Source: Spirochaetales bacterium
GTDB lineage: Bacteria > Spirochaetota > Spirochaetia > SZUA-6 > DRHE01
Reading direction: 5' to 3'
DNA length: 15,250 nt
Assembly (NCBI GenBank): GCA_023136785.1
Contig: JAGLQP010000010.1
Coordinates: 1-15,250 of the forward strand
In this document: positions 4,722 to 14,036 of the stretch, piece after piece
How positions within the stretch are numbered: the stretch's first letter is position 1
Layout: each line of letters starts with the position of its first letter
Translations under genes and position numbers: made by a program
The notes under the pieces: model-generated
Seen by the model: only the letters and a program-made list of their open reading frames with translations
What the model was told of the DNA's origin: nothing
Databases searched by the model: none

Positions 4722-5371
4722 TGAGCGGGAACGTGTCCCCTGTTCTTGAGGAAGGCCTCGCACAGCTGGATATCCCCTTCAACGTTGACCAGCTGCTCAA
4801 GCTTCACGTTTTTCTTCAAGAGCTCGAACGCTGGAACAAGGCATACGGTTTTGTGAAGGCTGCGGGGCAGCAGCTGATCATCCGGCACGTCCTCGATTCT
4901 CTTTCGGCCTGGCGGAAGATCTCCGCACTTCCCCGGAGAGCGCAGGTGGTGGATGTGGGAAGTGGAGCAGGATTTCCCGGTATCCCGCTGGCAGTTTTCC
5001 TGGCAGACTCACGTTTCACTCTTTTGGAACCATCCGCAAAAAAGGCCGCCTTCCTTCGCAATGTCGCAATTCTTGCACATCTGGATAATGTCGAGGTGGA
5101 GGAGGCTCGCCTCGAAGATGTGGAGCGCCGCTTCGACCTGGTCGTCTTCCGCGCTTTTACCCCCCTTCACAGGGAGATAGACGCTTTACGGCGTATCCTA
5201 AATCACAACGGTGTGATTATCGCCTACAAGGGAAAAAGAGCTCGCATCCTTGAAGAAATAGATGAGGCAGGTATCAGCCTGGAGCAGGTCCTGATCGAGG
5301 CCGTAGAGGTACCCTTTCTGTCGGAGGAACGTCACCTGGTGATTCTTTCTACATTTTTTTCAGAATCTTGA
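4721..5371 (+). CDS. rsmG: 16S rRNA (guanine-527-N7)-methyltransferase RsmG (GidB)
   Basis: SAM-dependent methyltransferase forming m7G527 in the 530 loop of 16S rRNA; loss in other bacteria gives low-level streptomycin resistance. The 216-residue protein shows RHVLDSL at 55-61, the SAM-binding motif DVGSGAGFPG at 78-87, LEPSAKKAAFLRN at 102-114, RAF at 144-146 and YKGK at 169-172, all in the family order. The helix before motif I has the expected WNK (38-40), though the usual NLT that follows is replaced by YGF. The ATG has GGAGGGG 4 bases upstream and its first base is the last base of the mnmG stop. It is the last gene of the mnmE operon. Its final 23 bases are antisense to the end of the TPR gene, so no terminator separates the two. 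Confidence 0.97.
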   Translation: MSGNVSPVLEEGLAQLDIPFNVDQLLKLHVFLQELERWNKAYGFVKAAGQQLIIRHVLDSLSAWRKISALPRRAQVVDVGSGAGFPGIPLAVFLADSRFTLLEPSAKKAAFLRNVAILAHLDNVEVEEARLEDVERRFDLVVFRAFTPLHREIDALRRILNHNGVIIAYKGKRARILEEIDEAGISLEQVLIEAVEVPFLSEERHLVILSTFFSES

Positions 5372-6701
5372 TCAGGTTTTCTTTGTCCACCAGATCGATC
5401 ATGCGGGCTTCTACGAATTCCAGAGCTTGTTCGCTGAATGTCCCGGCGGCCACGCAGACACCGCGGGGCGCCCGGACCTCCTTTGTGTGGGCGTAGAGAT
5501 CCCGGAGGAGCAGCTCGCCGATCGTCCCTTGAGAGCGGACGAAGCGAAATAGCACCTGATCTTCCCACTGAGCGGTTCGTACATGAGCCAGGATATCTGC
5601 GTGCTCTCCCTTTCGCAGAGAGATGTTGACCAACTTGGTGTTGGAGTTGGCAAAGTAGCGCGTGACGATCCGGCGGCACAGAGTAATGAACTCCGAGCTT
5701 ACCGCCATGAGGAATGTTTGTAAGAACCTGTTGGTGTTGACTTCCTGGTATTGGCCTATCTTCTCAAGCACATCTTTATAATCCGGCCGGAGGGTGTTGA
5801 TCTCCTTCCACAACCTGAGAGCGTTGGAAAGCTCCCCCAGTTTGAGGTTGGCCTCGGCCATTCTGTACTTCAGCTCGACGAAGACTGCCTGAGGAACGTT
5901 TTCGTGACGTACGCCGATGTCAAAATCCACGAGAGCTGTGTCGTATTTCTTGGCATTGCTGTTCAGAACTCCCGAGTGCAGCGCCGATACGGCGCCGATT
6001 TTAGGATCGGTGCGCAGGCGTGAAAAAATCTGTAGGGCCTGATCGTTGTTTTTCAATGCATAGTATGACTTCGCCAGTACGAATTGTGCCTTTTTGTCTT
6101 CAGGCTCAAAGTCCAACACCCGCTGCAGGGCCTCGATCGCCTCTTTGTAGTTTTTCAGGGCATACAGGCTGTGGCCTAAATAGCGGTTCGTAGCTACGTC
6201 GTCCGGACGCTGGCTGCGGGCTATGCCGAGGTAGCCGGATGCCCTTTGATAGTTTTTCTGCGCATATTCCATGACGCCCAGGTTGAAATTGACTTCAAAT
6301 TCGTCCTGTCGGAGAGTGCGTGCGACCATGAGGTGTTTGTGGGCTTCCTCGGCATCTTTCAGTTTGAAAGCCGACTGTCCAAGCCGCAAGTTCACCTCGA
6401 ACTCATCGATATCGGGATTAGCCCCGCACATTGAGACGAGGGATCGATAGTACTTGTAGGAATTGGGGTAGTCCTGTTCTTCAAAGGCTATATAAGCCAA
6501 ATCCTGAAGAGCCTGAACATCTCGCGGGTCTTGAGCGAGGCGGCGGCTCGCCTCTCGAATCACAACATTTCTGTCTCTACGTTGAACCCGTTTATGCCCC
6601 CGTGTGTCCTTTTCGTGGTCCCGTTTGATAAACAGTACGACGGCGATTCCCAAAAGTCCCACAGCGGCCAGCGCTATCAGGATGTAGAAAAGCAAATCCA
6701 T
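5349..6701 (-). CDS. Membrane-anchored TPR protein with a degenerate Mrr-like C-terminal domain
   Basis: With the start chosen here it has 450 residues: an N-terminal transmembrane segment (about 3-25) followed by KRDHEKD, several tetratricopeptide-like repeats (about 60-310, for example the units around ALKNYKEAIEALQRVL and ALKNNDQALQIFSRL), and a C-terminal domain (about 336-450). That domain has the run of an Mrr-type restriction-endonuclease fold: EHADILA, then LFRFVRSQGTIG, RDLYAH, GVCVAAGTFSEQALEFV and MIDLVDKENLIKIL. The catalytic QxK expected at R386-V388 is absent. The body is cytoplasmic if the basic residues after the helix stay inside. A scaffold role is inferred. The reading frame stays open upstream to an ATG at 6806, but the ATG at 6701 places the hydrophobic segment at the N-terminus; neither has a clear ribosome site. 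It overlaps rsmG by 23 bases, tail to tail. Confidence 0.88.
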   Translation of the reverse strand: MDLLFYILIALAAVGLLGIAVVLFIKRDHEKDTRGHKRVQRRDRNVVIREASRRLAQDPRDVQALQDLAYIAFEEQDYPNSYKYYRSLVSMCGANPDIDEFEVNLRLGQSAFKLKDAEEAHKHLMVARTLRQDEFEVNFNLGVMEYAQKNYQRASGYLGIARSQRPDDVATNRYLGHSLYALKNYKEAIEALQRVLDFEPEDKKAQFVLAKSYYALKNNDQALQIFSRLRTDPKIGAVSALHSGVLNSNAKKYDTALVDFDIGVRHENVPQAVFVELKYRMAEANLKLGELSNALRLWKEINTLRPDYKDVLEKIGQYQEVNTNRFLQTFLMAVSSEFITLCRRIVTRYFANSNTKLVNISLRKGEHADILAHVRTAQWEDQVLFRFVRSQGTIGELLLRDLYAHTKEVRAPRGVCVAAGTFSEQALEFVEARMIDLVDKENLIKILKKM

Positions 6702-6710
6702 GCTTTCTGT

Positions 6711-6739
6711 ATTGTCATGAAGAACAATAGGGTTGTCAA
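6711..6739 (-). promoter_or_regulatory. Candidate promoter for the TPR gene, nearly leaderless
   Basis: On the minus strand a consensus -35 TTGACA (6739-6734) is followed after exactly 17 bases by GACAAT (6716-6711, 4 of 6 matches to TATAAT). Transcription would start about 3 bases before the ATG at 6701. There is no clear ribosome site before that ATG, which fits a nearly leaderless mRNA. If translation instead starts at 6806, this match is accidental. Confidence 0.4.
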
Positions 6740-6812
6740 GTTTTGACCGCTCTGCAGCCGACTCTATAAACAGGGTGCAGTCGTTGGGCGCCTTGTGCCC
6801 GTACATCGTGCG

Positions 6813-6841
6813 TTGACAAACGGGATGCGGCGAGCTACGAT
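6813..6841 (+). promoter_or_regulatory. Sigma70-type promoter of the LysM-slt-uppP-ftsK operon
   Basis: A perfect -35 TTGACA (6813-6818) and a -10 TACGAT (6836-6841) are separated by 17 bases, the ideal spacing. Predicted transcription starts near 6848, about 20 bases before the TTG start at 6869, leaving room for the strong GAGGAGGAG ribosome site. It is the best promoter match I found in the window. The four downstream genes follow with at most 57 bases between them, so it probably serves all of them. Confidence 0.7.
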
Positions 6842-6857
6842 TTGTTTTGGGAGGGAT

Positions 6858-6866
6858 GAGGAGGAG
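6858..6866 (+). promoter_or_regulatory. Strong ribosome binding site deciding the TTG start of the LysM gene
   Basis: GAGGAGGAG ends 2 bases before TTG 6869, with an AGGAGG core 4 bases away. There is no in-frame ATG until well inside the first domain, and the ATG at 6856 is in another frame, so TTG 6869 is the likely start. Confidence 0.7.
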
Positions 6867-6868
6867 AT

Positions 6869-7783
6869 TTGAACGGACAACAGATAGGAATCAAGCTGGC
6901 AGATGGCTCTTTCTATCCGGTGCTGCCGGGGGGAGGGCGGGGCAGGAAGAAGCTGATCCTTACCACGGTTCGGGACAATCAGGAAACTGTACAAATCGAC
7001 CTGTACAGGGGCGAGGGTGAATTCGCAGAAGAGACCCAATATGTCGGCAGTTTGATGATCGAAAACATCCAACCCGCTCCAATGAAAGAACCGGAGGTGG
7101 AAGTAGTTCTTGGAGTGGATGAACAGGGCAATCTGGAGGCCACTGCCAGTGATGCTCTTACCGGGGAGAGCCAGAGTCTTTCGGTTAGTCTGCAATCTCT
7201 ATCCGAAGGTCCGGCCGCCGGTCCGGAGTTTGAGCTGGAGAGAGAAGGGGCAGCCTCCAGAGGGGAAGGGGAGAGCGATGAATTCGAGGAGTCCCTTCTT
7301 ACTGGAGAGACCTATCCTTTGGCGGATACGGATCGCCGCCGGGAGCATCTGCATAAAAAGCGTAGAAATCCACTTCTTCTCATCGGTTTCATTTTGCTGA
7401 GCCTGATCCTTATCGGAGGCATTGCCTTTGTTGTTTTCAGGGCCCTAGACGGGCAACCGATTCCGCCTCTGTTCGGAGGAAAGAGCGAAGCTGCGGAGAG
7501 CGAGGAAGCAGCACCTGTGGATGAAGCGGAACCCCAGGAGACGGAACCGGCGACAGAGGAACAGCAGGTTGGTCAAGCCACGGCGGCCGGTGGGACCGAA
7601 TCAGAGGCTGAAAGCGCCGCAGGTGGCCTATGGTATGAGATTAAGTGGGGGGACACACTGTGGGATATCTCCGCTACCTACTATCGCAATCCTTGGCTGT
7701 ACCCAAAAATAGCTAAAGAGAACAGCATCACCAATCCGGACCTTATTCTTGCAGGTACAAAACTCTTCATTCCAGAGAATTAG
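6869..7783 (+). CDS. Bitopic membrane protein: Hsp70 substrate-binding-like domain, TM helix, LysM domain
   Basis: A 304-residue protein in three parts. Residues 1-106 read like the beta-sandwich substrate-binding domain of DnaK/Hsp70: a T-x-x-DNQ-x-x-V motif (33-41) followed by a Gly-Glu turn (48-49), a YVGSL strand (58-62) and IxPAP (67-71), then EVEVVLGVDEQGNLEATASD (76-95) and TGE (98-100). There is no Hsp70 ATPase domain. After an acidic linker and a basic HKKRR, a single membrane helix spans about 169-190. An Ala/Glu-rich periplasmic linker leads to a LysM domain (255-302: WYEIKWGDTLWDIS, then NPDLILAGTKLFIP) that should bind peptidoglycan. The basic flank and lack of signal peptide put the Hsp70-like part in the cytosol. 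The TTG start has a strong ribosome site. It heads an envelope operon and its end overlaps the transglycosylase gene by 35 bases. LysM and TM are clear; the Hsp70-like call is by eye but strong. Function unknown. Confidence 0.93.
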   Translation: MNGQQIGIKLADGSFYPVLPGGGRGRKKLILTTVRDNQETVQIDLYRGEGEFAEETQYVGSLMIENIQPAPMKEPEVEVVLGVDEQGNLEATASDALTGESQSLSVSLQSLSEGPAAGPEFELEREGAASRGEGESDEFEESLLTGETYPLADTDRRREHLHKKRRNPLLLIGFILLSLILIGGIAFVVFRALDGQPIPPLFGGKSEAAESEEAAPVDEAEPQETEPATEEQQVGQATAAGGTESEAESAAGGLWYEIKWGDTLWDISATYYRNPWLYPKIAKENSITNPDLILAGTKLFIPEN

Positions 7784-9950
7784 TACAAGCATATCTCTTT
7801 TGTTCCTCCTCCTCTCACTGACCCAGTGCAGGGCGGATACGGTGTGGGGCATATCCCGGTCCACCTTCCTGGAGCGGCTGGCCAGACAGGAAAACGCGTT
7901 TCTAGCGGATCTTCAAATCGAAGAAGGGAATCTGGCGGAGGTTTTTCGTCTTGGGCCGGGAGCGCCCTACTACCTGTCTTTGATCTTCACCTCATTGGAA
8001 CGGGAACAGACGGCTGAGAAACTGCTGACACTTCAGTGGCAGCGAGGAGACTCGCCCTGGCGGGAAGAGGCGGCCTTCCTGCGCTTGAGTATCCAGATGG
8101 AGAACCGTCGCTACGAAGAAGCCGAGACTTTGGCCAGACAGATTCTCCGACGCGCACGGGAGGAAAGATATACGTTCCCGGCGGAGAGGAAGTTGGTGGC
8201 GGCCCTCTACTGGCAGGAGCAGGACGAGGAGGTATTGACCCTCCTCGAGGAGATGCGAAACAGCGGCGCACCCTGGGACGACGAGTTGGATCTTTTCACC
8301 GCCGTGTCCAGTCAAAGGCTCGAGAGGCAGGGATGGCAGCAGCTTTTCATCGATCTGTTTTACAGCAAGCGCACCTCGATTCTTCACTCCCGTGCCTATG
8401 CGTACCTGGAGCAGGAGGGTGTGCTGGATTCTTTTCCACAGGCGGGCTTGTTGTTTTTTCAGGGCAAGGACCTTCTCTACCGAGGCCAGAACTCTGAAGC
8501 GATCGATCTGATCGAGAGATCCCTGCCGGGGCTCGAGATCGAGCGGCTGGACCTGGACATCCTGATAGAGGAGATGGGGGCTGCCTATTTTGCCGTGGCG
8601 GGGCACAACAGGGGCGCCGAAGTGCTGTTGGATCTCTCCGAGAGGTTTTCCCCCTCCCAGCGCCTCGTTGCCGTGGAGATGGCGGGTAGGTTGTATCGAA
8701 AGGAGGGGAACTTCTCGGAGGCGAGGCGACTGCTCTCCGAAGTGGTTCGGGATACCGGCTCTCCGAAGCTGAGGGACAGAGCCATCTGGTTTGCCCTGGA
8801 TATGGCCAGAAGTCTCTCCCCTGGAGAGCTTCTCGACCAGGTCGAGGAGATGGCCTCTCTATGGCACGAGCCGGTCTTTTTCAAAGCTATCCTCGAGCCG
8901 GAGATCTCTCGGCTGATCGCTCAGAGGAACTGGCAGGACCTGCACCGTCTCTACCGTTTGCTCAAAGGGTTCGGCCCGCCGGAAACAATGGCCAGACTGG
9001 CCTATATCAACGCACGGGCCGTTAGTTTGGGCCTGCTGGATTCTTCCGGTTCTCAGGCTTCCCTGTCCCCCCAATCCCTGTTTTTGGAGGCTCGCAGTGC
9101 AGGTGAGGGTTATTACAGGTATCTTTCCGAAGCGGCCTTGATCGATATGGGGTTTCCCCTTCAGTGGAAGCTTGATGGATCGGACCAGCAAAGCGACTCC
9201 TCGCGTGGGGAGGAGCAAGTCAGCGAGGATGATTCACTGGAAATCTTGATCCGGGGATACTTCGAGTATGGACTCTACGAGCGTGGAATGGAACTCCTTC
9301 GATCGCATTGGCGCACCCTCTCCCCGGGGTTGATTCTTGATAGTGCGCTCACTCTACAAAACCGCGGGGAGTATCTGTCTTCAGTTCGCCTCATGAATCT
9401 CTACGTTCTGAGGAAGCCCACGGCGGTGGAGCGGGGGGATCTCGAACTTCTGTACCCGCAAGCCTTCGGAAAGCAGATCGGCGGGCTGGCGAAGAGCGAG
9501 GATATCCCGGCTTCAGTGTTTTTTGCTCTGGTGCGGGAGGAGAGCTACTTTGATCCACAGATCGTATCCCGTTCCGGAGCGGTCGGCCTGACCCAGCTGA
9601 TGCCGGAGACGGCCGGGGATTCCGCTCGCAGGCTTCGTATGGAGGAATACGACCTTCGGGATCCCGATCAGAATCTACGCCTGGGAGCTCGTCATTTTTC
9701 CAGGCTGTTATCCCGGCTTGAAGACATACCTAAGGCACTGATGGCCTACAACGCCGGGTTGTCCCGGCTGAGGAGCTGGGAGCGGAACTTCGCCGGTTTG
9801 CCCACGGATCTGCTCGCCGAGGCTGTTCCCTACCCGGAAACCCGTAACTATGTACGCAAGATCCTTGTATCTGCTGTATACTACGGTGGTTTGTACTACG
9901 ATCAGTCCCTCGAAGAAACGGTGTTTCTCTTCTTCCCGGGGCTAAAGTGA
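7749..9950 (+). CDS. Exported Slt70-type lytic murein transglycosylase
   Basis: Cleaves the MurNAc-GlcNAc bond of peptidoglycan to give 1,6-anhydromuropeptides, in the periplasm. The 733-residue protein starts with a signal peptide (hydrophobic run about 13-25, probable cleavage after CRA). A long helical-repeat region (about 40-570), like the Slt70 doughnut, follows. The catalytic SLT domain covers about 575-715: REES with catalytic E598, GAVGLTQLMPETA, AYNAG at 666-670 and PYPETRNYVRKI. Every hallmark is intact. The TTG start lies inside the end of the LysM gene (35-base overlap) with no good ribosome site and no ATG alternative in the signal region, so its exact start is uncertain and translation may depend on the upstream gene. 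UppP follows after 18 bases. The pairing with a LysM protein fits wall remodelling. Confidence 0.95.
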   Translation: MQVQNSSFQRISTSISLLFLLLSLTQCRADTVWGISRSTFLERLARQENAFLADLQIEEGNLAEVFRLGPGAPYYLSLIFTSLEREQTAEKLLTLQWQRGDSPWREEAAFLRLSIQMENRRYEEAETLARQILRRAREERYTFPAERKLVAALYWQEQDEEVLTLLEEMRNSGAPWDDELDLFTAVSSQRLERQGWQQLFIDLFYSKRTSILHSRAYAYLEQEGVLDSFPQAGLLFFQGKDLLYRGQNSEAIDLIERSLPGLEIERLDLDILIEEMGAAYFAVAGHNRGAEVLLDLSERFSPSQRLVAVEMAGRLYRKEGNFSEARRLLSEVVRDTGSPKLRDRAIWFALDMARSLSPGELLDQVEEMASLWHEPVFFKAILEPEISRLIAQRNWQDLHRLYRLLKGFGPPETMARLAYINARAVSLGLLDSSGSQASLSPQSLFLEARSAGEGYYRYLSEAALIDMGFPLQWKLDGSDQQSDSSRGEEQVSEDDSLEILIRGYFEYGLYERGMELLRSHWRTLSPGLILDSALTLQNRGEYLSSVRLMNLYVLRKPTAVERGDLELLYPQAFGKQIGGLAKSEDIPASVFFALVREESYFDPQIVSRSGAVGLTQLMPETAGDSARRLRMEEYDLRDPDQNLRLGARHFSRLLSRLEDIPKALMAYNAGLSRLRSWERNFAGLPTDLLAEAVPYPETRNYVRKILVSAVYYGGLYYDQSLEETVFLFFPGLK

Positions 9951-9968
9951 AAACAGGGAGGGAAAGCC

Positions 9969-10769
9969 GTGAGCACCGTTCAATCCTTGCTGCTCGGCGC
10001 ACTTCAGGGAGTCGCCGAGTTCCTGCCGATTTCCAGTTCAGGTCATCTGGTGCTGCTGAGAAACGTGATGAACTTGGGGGATATTCCACTGCTCTACGAC
10101 GTGCTTCTTCATGTCTCCACATTGATCGTGGTCATCATCGTTTTTCGAAAGAAAATCCTTTCGATCCTGTCCTCGATCTGGAGATGGCTGAGAAGAGCTT
10201 CGGCGCCCGAGGATCGGGAGAATCTGAATCTAACCCTCTATATCCTCGTCGCGACCGTGGTGACAGGCGGCGTTGGTCTGGTTCTTTCGGGCTTTGAAGA
10301 GATCTTCTTCCGGCAGCCCCGACTCGTATCCCTTCTCTTCCTTATCACGGCCCTGATTTTGATCTCAACCCTTCTTGTCCGAGGCCGGCGGGATTATCTG
10401 CAGATGGGAATCTTTGGAGCACTGATCGTAGGACTGGCCCAGGGAATCGGCGTTCTTCCCGGAATCTCGCGTGCGGGGATCACGATCTCCGTCGCCCTTC
10501 TGTGGGGCCTGGACAGACAGAGAGCGGGGGAGTTTTCGTTTCTAATCGTGATTCCTGCGATTCTCGGTGCCCTGCTCCTGCAGCTGCGCGAAGCCGGCTC
10601 GCTCTTCGAGGTGGTCGATCCGGCAGCCCTCGTGGCGGGTTTTGCCGCTTCCTTGGTTGTCGGTCTGATCTCGCTGCTTCTGCTGTTGACAGTCATACGG
10701 AAGGGTAGGCTGGCTCTGTTCAGCATCTACCTCGTGCCGCTGGCGGTGGCCACTTTTATCCTGCTCTGA
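9969..10769 (+). CDS. uppP: Undecaprenyl-diphosphate phosphatase UppP (BacA)
   Basis: Integral membrane phosphatase that recycles undecaprenyl pyrophosphate to the monophosphate lipid carrier for peptidoglycan and other wall polymers; overexpression gives bacitracin resistance in other bacteria. The 266 residues match the family length. Motif 1, QGVAEFLPISSSGHL at 13-27 (catalytic E17 and the SSSGH run), and motif 2, LPGISRAG at 163-170, are complete, and about eight hydrophobic segments are visible. The GTG start has GGGAGG 7 bases upstream. It sits 18 bases after the transglycosylase gene and 57 bases before ftsK, in the same orientation. Confidence 0.98.
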   Translation: MSTVQSLLLGALQGVAEFLPISSSGHLVLLRNVMNLGDIPLLYDVLLHVSTLIVVIIVFRKKILSILSSIWRWLRRASAPEDRENLNLTLYILVATVVTGGVGLVLSGFEEIFFRQPRLVSLLFLITALILISTLLVRGRRDYLQMGIFGALIVGLAQGIGVLPGISRAGITISVALLWGLDRQRAGEFSFLIVIPAILGALLLQLREAGSLFEVVDPAALVAGFAASLVVGLISLLLLLTVIRKGRLALFSIYLVPLAVATFILL

Positions 10770-10826
10770 GACAGGGGCTCTTTCACTCTTCCTTCTTTTG
10801 TTCCGATAACAGACGTAGAGGGAACT

Positions 10827-12944
10827 TTGAAGCGTAGTATTTCAAGCATTTCTTATATCCTGGCCTTGCTCCTGACAGTTGTTGCCGCCGGGATCCTTGT
10901 CTCGCTGCTACGGGCCATCAACGCTCAGCAAGGTCTGTTGTCGGTACCGGGGGAGTTTCTCTTCGCCACCTTTCTGTGGGCTTCCTTTTTTATTCCCGTG
11001 TACTTGATTTTCCTGGCCTTATTTCTGCTCTCGCGAGGTTTCTCCGGCCGGGGTCTGTTTGTCTTGAATCTGTTTATCCTGCCCTTTATCACCGCCAGCG
11101 TCTTTCACAAGGTGGTGCTGCACGGGACCATACCCGGTTCCTTTCTCCCTGATCTGATGGTCGACACCTTTGGTCGCACCCTGTCGGCCATTTTTCTCTT
11201 TCTCATCGTTTTGTTCGAGCTCTTTCTCATCTTTACCCTGCGCGGTGTTCTGAGAGCACGTGCCGGGGCGGGTACAGCGGAGGCAGAAACACCAGCCAGA
11301 AGAGCTCGGCCCCGTAAACCAAAACGGAAACGCACCGCGGCAGCGGCGACCGCTTCCGCCGGGCTCGGTTTCGGGCAGGGAGCGGGGTTGCCGGAGCTGG
11401 AGATAGTGGTGGAGGAAGGTACCCCGGTGGTGAAGCCGCGACCCGCCCCGGAGGCTGAAGCCAGGGAGCGAATCCTCTCTCGACAGAAGGTGAGTCCGCG
11501 GAGCAGCCGTGGTTCCGGAGGGAAGACGGGATCCTCGGTTTACTCCTTTCCCATCAAGGGCCTGCTCAAGGACTATCCGGACGGGGAGTACTGGGAGATC
11601 GATGCCGAGACCCGCCGTTCCGCTGAAGTGCTGATGGAGACTCTGAAGGAGTTTAAGATCAGTGCCGAGGTCACGGGAATCCGCAAGGGCCCGGTGATCA
11701 CGATGTTCGAGATCCTTCCCTCTCCCGGAGTGAAGATCTCCAAGATCGCCAATCTGGCCGACAATATCGCCCTGCGTTTGGCCGCCTCCAGGGTCAGAAT
11801 CGTGGCGCCCATCCCGGGGAAACACGCCGTGGGGATTGAAGTGCCCAACAAGAGACGAGCCATTGTCTCATTCAAAGAGATTGTCAGCCTGAAGGATTTT
11901 CAGCATGCCCGGATGGAGATTCCCATTGCACTGGGCAAAGACATCTCCGGAGAGGCTCAGCTGATCGATTTGACCCAGACCCCTCATCTCCTCATTGCCG
12001 GGGCAACGGGCAGCGGAAAGTCCGTCTGCGTCAACTCCATCATCTGTTCGATCCTGTACAGGAGGGCACCGGAAGATGTTCGCATCCTGCTCATCGATCC
12101 GAAGATCGTAGAGCTGAAAGCCTATAACGACATTCCTCATCTGTTGACCCCTGTGGTTACCGAACCGAAAAAGGCCTTTCAAGCGCTGCAATACTGCATT
12201 AACGAGATGGAGCGACGCTACTCCATGTTGGACTACACCGGAGCCCGGGATATTCGTTCCTACAACAAGAAGGCGGCCAAGCACAAGCTGACCATCGAGA
12301 AGATCCCCTACTGGGTGATTCTGATCGACGAGTTCGCCGATCTCATGGCCACCACCGGCAAGGAGATGGAGGCGGTACTGGCCAGACTGGCCGCCATGGC
12401 CCGGGCGGTTGGGATTCATCTGGTCCTGGCAACCCAGAGGCCGTCGATCGACGTGATCACCGGCCTGATTAAAGCCAACATCCCCTCCCGGATCGCCTTC
12501 ATGGTGGCCGGCAAGTTTGATTCACGTATCATCATCGATTCTGTCGGAGCGGAGAAGCTCCTCGGCCAGGGAGATATGCTCTTCACCCCGGCCTGGGACC
12601 CGATCCCCGTACGCATCCAAGGAACGTATCTCTCCGAAGAGGAAGTGGAAGCCATCACAGATCACGCCCGGACTCTTGGCGAGCCGGAGTATCTCGACGA
12701 GGAGATGTTCTTCGATGAGGAAGAGGAGGAGTATGAGGGATCCGGCTCCGAAGATCCGCTGATGGACAAGGCTATCGAGATCGTCTTGGCCGCCGGGAAG
12801 GCTTCCGCCTCGTATATCCAGCGCCGGTTAAAGGTAGGCTACAACCGGGCCGCTCGGATGGTCGAAGAGATGGAACGAATGGGTATTGTCGGACCCGCCC
12901 AGGGCAGCAAGGCCCGCGAGATCCTTCACGTGCCCAACAGCTGA
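10827..12944 (+). CDS. ftsK: DNA translocase FtsK/SpoIIIE
   Basis: Septum-located ATPase that pumps chromosomal DNA and aids dimer resolution during division. The 705 residues comprise four N-terminal membrane segments (about 8-30, 44-69, 75-95 and 112-142), a short basic linker (RPRKPKRKR at 161-169), the alpha/beta motor with Walker A GATGSGKS at 392-399 and Walker B LIDEFADLM (D501, E502), and a C-terminal gamma winged-helix domain (about 643-703, with SYIQRRLKVGYNRAARMVEEME) that reads polar DNA motifs. An acidic patch of consecutive Glu (631-635) separates motor and gamma domain. It is compact, more like SpoIIIE (about 790 residues) than E. coli FtsK (1329), because the linker is short. 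TTG start with GAGGGAA upstream. Last gene of the envelope operon; it converges on the DOMON gene with a 42-base gap that shows no clear terminator. Confidence 0.97.
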   Translation: MKRSISSISYILALLLTVVAAGILVSLLRAINAQQGLLSVPGEFLFATFLWASFFIPVYLIFLALFLLSRGFSGRGLFVLNLFILPFITASVFHKVVLHGTIPGSFLPDLMVDTFGRTLSAIFLFLIVLFELFLIFTLRGVLRARAGAGTAEAETPARRARPRKPKRKRTAAAATASAGLGFGQGAGLPELEIVVEEGTPVVKPRPAPEAEARERILSRQKVSPRSSRGSGGKTGSSVYSFPIKGLLKDYPDGEYWEIDAETRRSAEVLMETLKEFKISAEVTGIRKGPVITMFEILPSPGVKISKIANLADNIALRLAASRVRIVAPIPGKHAVGIEVPNKRRAIVSFKEIVSLKDFQHARMEIPIALGKDISGEAQLIDLTQTPHLLIAGATGSGKSVCVNSIICSILYRRAPEDVRILLIDPKIVELKAYNDIPHLLTPVVTEPKKAFQALQYCINEMERRYSMLDYTGARDIRSYNKKAAKHKLTIEKIPYWVILIDEFADLMATTGKEMEAVLARLAAMARAVGIHLVLATQRPSIDVITGLIKANIPSRIAFMVAGKFDSRIIIDSVGAEKLLGQGDMLFTPAWDPIPVRIQGTYLSEEEVEAITDHARTLGEPEYLDEEMFFDEEEEEYEGSGSEDPLMDKAIEIVLAAGKASASYIQRRLKVGYNRAARMVEEMERMGIVGPAQGSKAREILHVPNS

Positions 12945-12986
12945 TAGTTCGACCGTGGACCCCGCCGAGCACACCCCTATCACTTT

Positions 12987-14036
12987 CTACAGTATACCTG
13001 CCTGAAACAGTCCCAGCACGATCGTGGCTGCCATAAACAGCAGGGTGACCCTGCCGAGCCAGCGGTGGAAGGCCCGGGCTTTCTTGGCCCTGCTCGGTAC
13101 CTTTCGGATCTTCAGCATGAAATGCCCCAAGAAGGGTGTGAAGATCATGAGGGTGATGGCGATCCCTCCGATGTAGGAGTGAAGGACTTGCAGATGCATT
13201 TGAGTGGTTTGTGAGATCATGTACACGGCCATGCCGACACCCACCACCCCGGTCGAAGAGCCGGCAATGTTTATCCGGCGGTGAGTTTTCAGCCACCACT
13301 TCTTTCGCTTGAAATAGCGGGGAAATAACATACCCACGAAGAGCAGCACGAAGGCGGTTGCCATCAAGACCCCATGCACCGGATAGAGCAGGGCGTACAG
13401 GTCCCGCTGCGGTCCGGGTTGGGCCTGAGCTGATGTTTGCCCCCCTGACAGGCGAATCGTAGCTCCGCCCTTCCTGCTGTGCAGGTCCCGGTAGTCATCG
13501 GAGCCGCTGTAGGCCCAGATAATCTTGATCTCCCCGTCTTGGGACAGGGCTTTGTCGTAGGCATCCCCTGAGTCGAGAGGACGGGTGAACTCGAAGGTGG
13601 TAATGCCCCCCTGCTCGCTTCCTGCAAAGGAGAGGATATCCTGTCCTCCCCCCAACTCCTCGTCCGGAGGATGGGGACCGGACAACCCTGTTGAGTAGCA
13701 GTCCAGTGCTCCCGCACTTCCGCCGGCCTCGACCCAGCCGAAGACCATGTCCGCTTCTGCCATTGCTTGGGTCGGATCGATCCCCAGGCATACCCAGCCC
13801 CCGGTCCGGGCCTGGATGCCGAAATGGGCGGTATCCTGATCAACCTCCCAGTACAGGAGATAATCCCCGGCGGCGAGGGATAGCAGATTCCCATACTCCC
13901 CTTCGGTAATTGTACCGTCGATATCCACAGCAGATACGGAGGAAACGCTTCCCAGAATCAGGAGGACGGTCACCATTCGCCGGATCCGACTCCACCTGGA
14001 ACCCGTTATTTTCATGATAATCATGGGGCATAGCAT
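12987..14036 (-). CDS. DOMON-cytochrome b561 fusion, putative transmembrane electron carrier
   Basis: Predicted to pass electrons across the cytoplasmic membrane through bound haems. After a signal peptide (hydrophobic about 21-35, likely cut after VSA), residues 38-198 form a DOMON domain: GWVCLGIDP, AMAEADMVFGW, DCYSTG and DLHSRKGG. M92 and H186 are candidate haem ligands by analogy with the cellobiose dehydrogenase cytochrome (Met/His). The rest is a cytochrome b561-type domain with four membrane segments and a histidine in each expected place: H221 (YPVHG), H252 (KTHRRIN), H286 (VLHSYIGG) and H324 (FHRWLGR), enough for two b haems. The DOMON part would be periplasmic. ATGs at 14036, 14024 and 14015 are all possible starts; the last gives the most usual signal peptide and none has a strong ribosome site. 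It lies 79 bases after the ROK kinase; a functional link to it is not evident. Confidence 0.9.
   Translation of the reverse strand: MLCPMIIMKITGSRWSRIRRMVTVLLILGSVSSVSAVDIDGTITEGEYGNLLSLAAGDYLLYWEVDQDTAHFGIQARTGGWVCLGIDPTQAMAEADMVFGWVEAGGSAGALDCYSTGLSGPHPPDEELGGGQDILSFAGSEQGGITTFEFTRPLDSGDAYDKALSQDGEIKIIWAYSGSDDYRDLHSRKGGATIRLSGGQTSAQAQPGPQRDLYALLYPVHGVLMATAFVLLFVGMLFPRYFKRKKWWLKTHRRINIAGSSTGVVGVGMAVYMISQTTQMHLQVLHSYIGGIAITLMIFTPFLGHFMLKIRKVPSRAKKARAFHRWLGRVTLLFMAATIVLGLFQAGIL

Follow-up and report, generated by a model that had tools for sequence, protein, structure and literature searches.

A transmembrane protein carrying a lidless Hsp70 substrate-binding domain and a LysM domain, encoded beside a flagellar lytic transglycosylase in Spirochaetia: a candidate wall-anchored docking hub

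Results

Organization of the locus

The window analysed here is a stretch of 15,250 nucleotides from a Spirochaetales bacterium (assembly GCA_023136785.1, contig JAGLQP010000010.1). It contains a gene for a protein which combines an Hsp70 substrate-binding domain (SBD), a transmembrane (TM) helix and a LysM domain, together with the following features.

5349..6806, minus strand: divergent neighbour with an N-terminal TM segment (by eye), TPR repeats and an Mrr-like nuclease-fold domain (ORF and Pfam)
6813..6841, plus strand: sigma-70-like promoter TTGACA-17-TACGAT, 5' of the SBD-LysM gene (consensus match only)
6859..6864, plus strand: AGGAGG, likely Shine-Dalgarno sequence for the TTG start at 6869 (read from the sequence)
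6869..7783, plus strand: SBD-TM-LysM protein, 304 aa (ORF, profile matches and predicted structure)
6869..7204, plus strand: Hsp70 substrate-binding beta domain, aa 1-112, predicted cytosolic (profile matches and predicted fold)
7205..7369, plus strand: cytosolic linker, aa 113-167, acidic, turning basic right before the membrane
7223..7237, plus strand: PEFEL, the form taken in the window by the family motif [ILVM]P[DE]F, with G in place of the first hydrophobic residue
7298..7318, plus strand: LTGETYP, juxtamembrane motif conserved among near relatives
7370..7444, plus strand: transmembrane helix, aa 168-192 (predicted)
7445..7624, plus strand: periplasmic linker, aa 193-252, pLDDT mostly low (predicted structure)
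7625..7780, plus strand: LysM domain, aa 253-304 (profile match and predicted structure)
7749..9950, plus strand: BB0259-type flagellar lytic transglycosylase, 733 aa (ORF and NCBIfam)
9969..10769, plus strand: UppP/BacA undecaprenyl-diphosphatase (named by eye; homologous ORFs found at related loci by tblastn)
10827..12944, plus strand: FtsK/SpoIIIE-type DNA translocase, 705 aa (ORF and NCBIfam)

The initial annotation had described a stand-alone Hsp70 substrate-binding beta domain lacking ATPase and lid, in an N-in protein with a TM helix and a periplasmic LysM domain, whose gene opens a run that also contains a wall hydrolase, UppP and FtsK; profile matches, structure prediction and the ORFs bear out this description on every point. 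The comparison with the DnaK SBD that it called for gave both an Hsp70 match, limited to positions 418-499 of the 599 of the Pfam HSP70 profile, and a predicted beta sandwich. In the alignment to DnaK the protein begins at about residue 394 and has no interdomain linker. The N-terminal nucleotide-binding (ATPase) domain is absent, as judged from Pfam and from the 62 bases that separate the gene from its divergent neighbour, and instead of a helical lid the predicted structure features a short helix, 108-112, alone after the sandwich. The predicted topology is N-in, with a single TM helix and a periplasmic LysM, whose last residue is 302 of 304. The Pfam and NCBIfam family searches gave no signalling domain. 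What is added to the earlier description is the nature of the hydrolase, which is of the flagellar BB0259 type, an acidic linker with a recurring motif, and the existence of OmpA-bearing and chemotaxis-linked relatives.

The juxtamembrane LTGETYP motif, present as LTGE[TS]YP in 102 of 116 homologues among those listed, resembles the DnaK model peptide NRLLLTG, and docking of the motif into the protein's own groove was considered and set aside: among 46 loci, LTG[ED] near the TM helix was seen solely in the order of the window, and residues 127-148 of the cytosolic linker have pLDDT below 50 in the AlphaFold model, so that the idea found no support. Promoter-like sites in 6600-13100 are two, equal to the number in shuffled sequence (mean 2.0). 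Downstream of the run, on the minus strand at 12987-14036, lies a DOMON domain fused to a cytochrome b561-like membrane domain.

Conservation of gene order

The transglycosylase matches the NCBIfam family NF047373 with an E value of 4.9e-157 and 524.7 bits, above the cut-off of 234, and shares 35 bases with the SBD-LysM gene, provided that its start is the TTG at 7749. As read from coordinates, it lies directly 3' of the SBD gene in 40 of the 43 related genomes carrying the latter, in a few of them as a contig-end fragment; the other three (G035, G052 and G060) have no match to the BB0259-type family over its cut-off. The 35-base overlap recurs at 15 loci besides the window, among 39 ORFs with the enzyme found downstream, start codons being putatively taken as the first after a stop. 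In Borrelia, BB0259 is reported to be required for the hook to pass the cell wall (PMC8517470, in the text available).

Searches with the proteins of the window found the SBD and TPR-Mrr genes both present at 27 of 40 loci, and the TPR-Mrr, SBD, transglycosylase, UppP and FtsK genes all together at 10 of 40, many of the others ending at a contig edge. The TPR-Mrr gene also occurs in a Borrelia-type genome, and its product is a possible cytosolic partner of the SBD protein. In G035, G060 and G282 the SBD gene immediately precedes ftsK, without a transglycosylase, at gaps of 38, 32 and 93 bases, respectively.

Family spread and co-occurrence with flagella

At an E value of 1e-3 the window protein has 1717 homologues; of the 120 listed, those that carry a name from their source are mostly annotated as LysM, YgaU or hypothetical, and one as an Hsp70 family protein. 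Members of the family occur across Spirochaetia. Profile matches occur in 60 of 61 related genomes, many through DnaK alone; the search for further proteins of the same domain order, suggested in the initial annotation, assigned an SBD-TM(-LysM) gene to 43 of the 61, sorted by frame length, coverage and position. Outside the 43, probable degenerate copies lie in G043 (profile E value 1.2e-5) and G038 (position and TM only). In the phylum sample, profile matches were obtained in 244 of 246 genomes, again often through Hsp70. Three or more genomes from other classes, G061, G073 and G082 among them, have the full architecture; five tested genomes of other classes (G062, G063, G064, G069, G114) have rod genes and, among the matches listed, SBD matches confined to the E range of Hsp70.

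No homologue was found in viral contigs, and a first search of named genomes for the SBD-TM-LysM protein gave none. With LysM-derived patterns, at least 15 of 80 kept loci in named genomes match into the SBD, all 15 in spirochaete records; such patterns miss SBDs without a LysM of this kind, so that carriers in other phyla are possible. The gene is present also in a genome whose gene content fits Treponema pallidum. Following the TP numbering as we assume it to run, that gene content puts it across mnmG from TP0046-TP0048, and the motility link of these genes was discarded as evidence. TP0046-TP0048 are tied to motility in the available text of PMC2386257.

The rod protein family PF00460 occurs in 49 of the 61 related genomes, and the SBD gene is carried by 41 of these 49 as against 2 of the 12 without rod genes (Fisher p 2.3e-5, counting species as independent and ignoring relatedness). 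The flagella-less genomes fall in six families (f4, f8, f9, f14, f16, f22), in five of which no flagella-less member carries the gene; in f4 the flagellated G023 has it and G009, G014 and G019 do not. It is retained in the non-flagellated G035 and G060, from a single genus, and G251, which has no rod genes, may carry it too. Conversely, rod genes are present and no SBD copy was detected in G018 (69% complete), G031, G044, G045, G050 and G056; G038 and G043, likewise with rod genes, have just the degenerate copies.

The peptide groove

Alignment of 68 distinct SBD-TM-LysM rows with the DnaK pocket (DnaK numbering) shows that the pocket positions are hydrophobic: I401 is kept in 63 rows, V436 in 55 and I438 in 59, F426 is replaced by L or V in 66, and position 472 is I, V or L in all 68. 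Q433 is invariant, and M404, in the arch, is A in 59. At position 402, K or R stands in all 68 rows, while E is found in 17 of 20 rows assigned to Hsp70; one of these 20 (L102) is in fact an SBD-TM-LysM protein with an overlong ORF, leaving 19 true Hsp70 rows. Mean entropy is 0.82 in the pocket columns, compared with 1.87 in random columns, with a fraction of 0.0001 of random sets as low; against other hydrophobic columns the pocket is not more conserved (0.144 of random sets as low). It is likely that the groove is open and accepts a ligand of another type than that of DnaK, and the exchange of E402 for K or R throughout the family suggests a single type of ligand in place of a broad range of clients.

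In a tree of the SBD, based on 110 columns and weakly resolved (56 of 102 inner branches open), 19 of the 20 Hsp70-type rows, including E. coli DnaK, form one branch (99%) together with the SBD-only L087, and L092 is placed elsewhere on a long branch. Derivation of the family from a single spirochaete Hsp70, considered as its origin, is unsupported, these 19 Hsp70-type rows branching apart from the SBD-TM-LysM family.

Linkers and their motif

The cytosolic linker is acidic in 68 of 70 proteins (D and E exceeding K and R outside the last 15 residues) and varies widely in length (median 65.5, range 24-463 aa, n=70), long forms being frequent in family f29; the periplasmic linker has a median of 72 and a range of 39-133 aa. 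In the 70 cytosolic linkers [ILVM]P[DE]F was counted 55 times, spread over 39 proteins, where 200 shuffles gave a mean of 1.15 and a maximum of 5; the count is inflated by common descent, as shuffles leave kinship in. Such a motif lies no more than 40 residues past the SBD in 35 of the 70, and none was found in the 70 periplasmic linkers. Five f29 proteins carry 2-8 copies per linker of a slightly wider pattern, in tandem, within long linkers which by eye look unalike. In the ORFs of neighbouring genes, [ILVM]P[DEN][FY] was counted four times for FtsK (31 ORFs), once for TPR-Mrr (47 ORFs) and 14 times for the transglycosylase (59 ORFs). The FtsK of G060 (L027 6970-9309) contains VPDFELPEPE, resembling the linker motif of the SBD protein.

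Relatives with other parts

In two relatives, L089 (5998-7224) and L090 (7216-8316), OmpA takes the place of LysM, giving an SBD-TM-OmpA protein (OmpA PF00691, E values 1.2e-16 and 1.2e-10; SBD family profile, 2.7e-17 and 2.6e-16, respectively). SBD-TM-OmpA-like genes occur in five of five f2 genomes among 26 of the order, one of them split over two contigs, OmpA having been checked in two of these relatives; in the phylum sample, which may include no carriers, the form was found in 0 of 247 genomes. The genes 5' of the L089 form look by eye like a MoxR/Bat-type cluster. Other copies, at the equivalent locus, lack LysM (L023, L029, L060, L066, L067, L144). The use of two wall-binding domains argues that anchoring the SBD to the wall may be the point of the architecture, and the LysM-less copies argue that anchoring may not be indispensable.

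Two paralogues are linked to chemotaxis. One, an SBD-TM-LysM protein of G002, is encoded in a chemotaxis cluster (L040 6214-16791) among CheW, Hsp70, DnaJ, GrpE-like, HEAT-cyclase and MCP genes, and a weaker one in G005 precedes CheY-like, CheX, CheA and CheW genes. One of the two was found in a single genome among 26 of the order; the SBD match of the other is very weak (E value 0.0058), its full length giving 1.4e-19 against the window protein. No Pfam family was found in either at 1e-5.

Hsp70-related genes also accompany flagellar ones. In a Borrelia-type genome a lidless Hsp70, presumably bb0264, adjoins flagellar genes near the SBD locus (L021 10074-11585), and in G017 a flagellar cluster ends in an SBD-only ORF of 202 aa, followed by a J-domain gene (L087 3142-4373).

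Discussion

Little is known of how spirochaetes position their periplasmic flagella close to the poles, and we know of no LysM landmark described for them. In agreement with the initial annotation, which knew of no function for this architecture, no paper on an SBD-TM-LysM protein was found in the open-access literature, among the matches listed; PMC3726837, in the part available, concerns a LysM/M23 peptidase of Borrelia instead.

We propose, with a probability of roughly 0.4, that the protein acts in flagellar assembly as a transmembrane docking hub anchored to peptidoglycan, built from other parts than the proteobacterial polar landmarks HubP and FimV and similar to them in its working. LysM would pin it to one place in the wall, the single helix would span the membrane and connect LysM to the cytosolic part, and the SBD, together with the acidic motif-bearing linker, would gather cytosolic partners without an ATP cycle. 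Such a hub would most likely place or hold the flagellar machinery, or the chemotaxis machinery in the case of the paralogues, where the transglycosylase opens the wall. The proposal is favoured because HubP and FimV share the same plan, as detailed below, and it builds on observed domains, predicted fold and topology, conservation of the family, gene order and co-occurrence with flagella. Support comes from the position before the transglycosylase with its recurring overlap, from the unequal distribution between genomes with and without rod genes, from the hydrophobic groove, the acidic linker and its motif, from the OmpA exchange and the two chemotaxis-cluster paralogues, and from the need of the hook for BB0259 in passing the wall. 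From these we infer peptide binding by the groove, localization of the protein and the identity of the recruited partners. Against the hub speak G035 and G060, which keep the gene without flagella, and the flagellated genomes without a copy or with a degenerate one, together with the five tested genomes of other classes that have rod genes; the LysM-less copies and the Borrelia form, by which wall binding would not always be needed; the isolated occurrence of the chemotaxis paralogues; and a pocket no more conserved than other hydrophobic columns.

In a further elaboration, which we regard as improbable, the protein would be a self-assembling landmark: the SBD would grip the [ILVM]P[DE]F motif in the linkers of neighbouring molecules, the invariant K/R402 matching the acidic flanks of the motif (in tandem in treponeme-type proteins), to form a wall-anchored scaffold marking the passage of the flagellum through the wall. 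The module might then have been combined with more than one wall-binding domain (LysM, OmpA) and with more than one set of clients (flagella, chemotaxis arrays).

Other roles have to be weighed against the docking hub. As a membrane-tethered holdase, the SBD would grip exposed hydrophobic stretches of proteins awaiting flagellar type III or Sec export and keep them close to a wall site, from where they might pass to the lidless Hsp70 of the flagellar operon. The hydrophobic groove, the lidless Hsp70 beside flagellar genes and near the locus in the Borrelia-type genome, the SBD-only ORF and J-domain gene closing the G017 cluster, the Hsp70, DnaJ and GrpE-like genes around one paralogue, and an flgB operon given as spanning bb0294 to bb0264 (PMC10802407, in the text available) would all fit, but a protein without ATPase, linker and lid has no release switch, and K or R at position 402 in every row suggests one kind of ligand; we consider this role doubtful. 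The place of the gene directly before ftsK, with no transglycosylase, in G035, G060 and G282, and its retention in the first two without flagella, would fit a division or pole-building factor linked to FtsK, which would mark the septum or new pole, flagella depending on it indirectly. The gene is, however, absent from 10 of 12 flagella-less genomes, which must still divide, and a role in division is unlikely.

Adjacency in 40 of 43 carriers and the recurring overlap would also be explained by a dedicated partner of the transglycosylase, which would anchor or switch the enzyme so that the wall is cut solely under a new flagellar rod. Yet the two are separable, G035, G052, G060 and G282 having the SBD protein and no BB0259-type enzyme over the cut-off, and G031, G045, G050 and G056 the enzyme over the cut-off and no detected SBD protein; moreover, the enzyme is periplasmic, which leaves a cytosolic SBD unexplained, and such a partnership appears unlikely. 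The sensor between cytosolic clients and the wall suggested in the initial annotation, relaying client load in the cytosol or the state of the wall outside across the membrane, agrees with the presence of domains on either side of a single TM helix. The long linkers on both sides, largely of low confidence in the model, make direct conformational signalling unlikely, and a signalling domain was not found; the sensor obtained no direct support and is very improbable, anchoring or docking fitting the comparative evidence better.

A conserved wall-anchored protein encoded with a flagellar wall-cutting enzyme is a concrete candidate for flagellar placement. Were the docking hub correct, an Hsp70 peptide-binding domain could serve simply for docking, with no need of ATP, and [ILVM]P[DE]F offers a testable motif.

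Comparison with known systems

The likeness to the SBD beta domain of Hsp70/DnaK resides in the sequence and predicted fold of the beta sandwich and in the hydrophobic groove residues. The family differs in having no nucleotide-binding domain (NBD), interdomain linker or lid, in the exchanges of E402 to K/R and M404 to A, and in being tethered to the membrane; lacking ATPase, linker and lid, the window protein is not an Hsp70. Oligomers of Hsp70 are reported to form through an SBD that holds the interdomain linker (PMC3696110), and the DnaK SBD is reported to be bound by GrpE tails (PMC12915176), both in the text available. The BB0264-like lidless Hsp70 resembles the family in placing an Hsp70 SBD in a flagellar setting, but has an NBD (Pfam HSP70 positions 2-501) and neither TM nor LysM. 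A Borrelia protein, recorded as hypothetical, lies between the BB0259 homologue and the TPR-Mrr gene, as the SBD gene does, and has an acidic linker, a TM helix and a weak SBD match (1.2e-5; hhalign E value 2.6e-4, with a probability of only 42.6); it differs in having no LysM and no Pfam match.

The closest parallel in plan is HubP/FimV, reported to combine a periplasmic LysM, a TM helix and an acidic cytosolic region and, at the pole, to be linked to clients of the flagellar and chemotaxis systems (PMC12918733 and PMC11236974, in the text available). Periplasmic LysM, one (predicted) TM helix, acidic cytosolic region and the link to flagella and chemotaxis are shared with the SBD protein, in which, however, the order is reversed, LysM being C-terminal, and the SBD beta domain replaces the FimV TPR domain. 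Neither a FimV family nor the C-terminal FimV TPR domain was among the NCBIfam matches of the window protein; the family of that domain, TIGR03504, has matches in 25 of the 61 genomes, one of them just over the cut-off, in a set with no control genome known to have FimV. The window protein is thus not a HubP/FimV, having no FimV domain, and most plausibly works like one.
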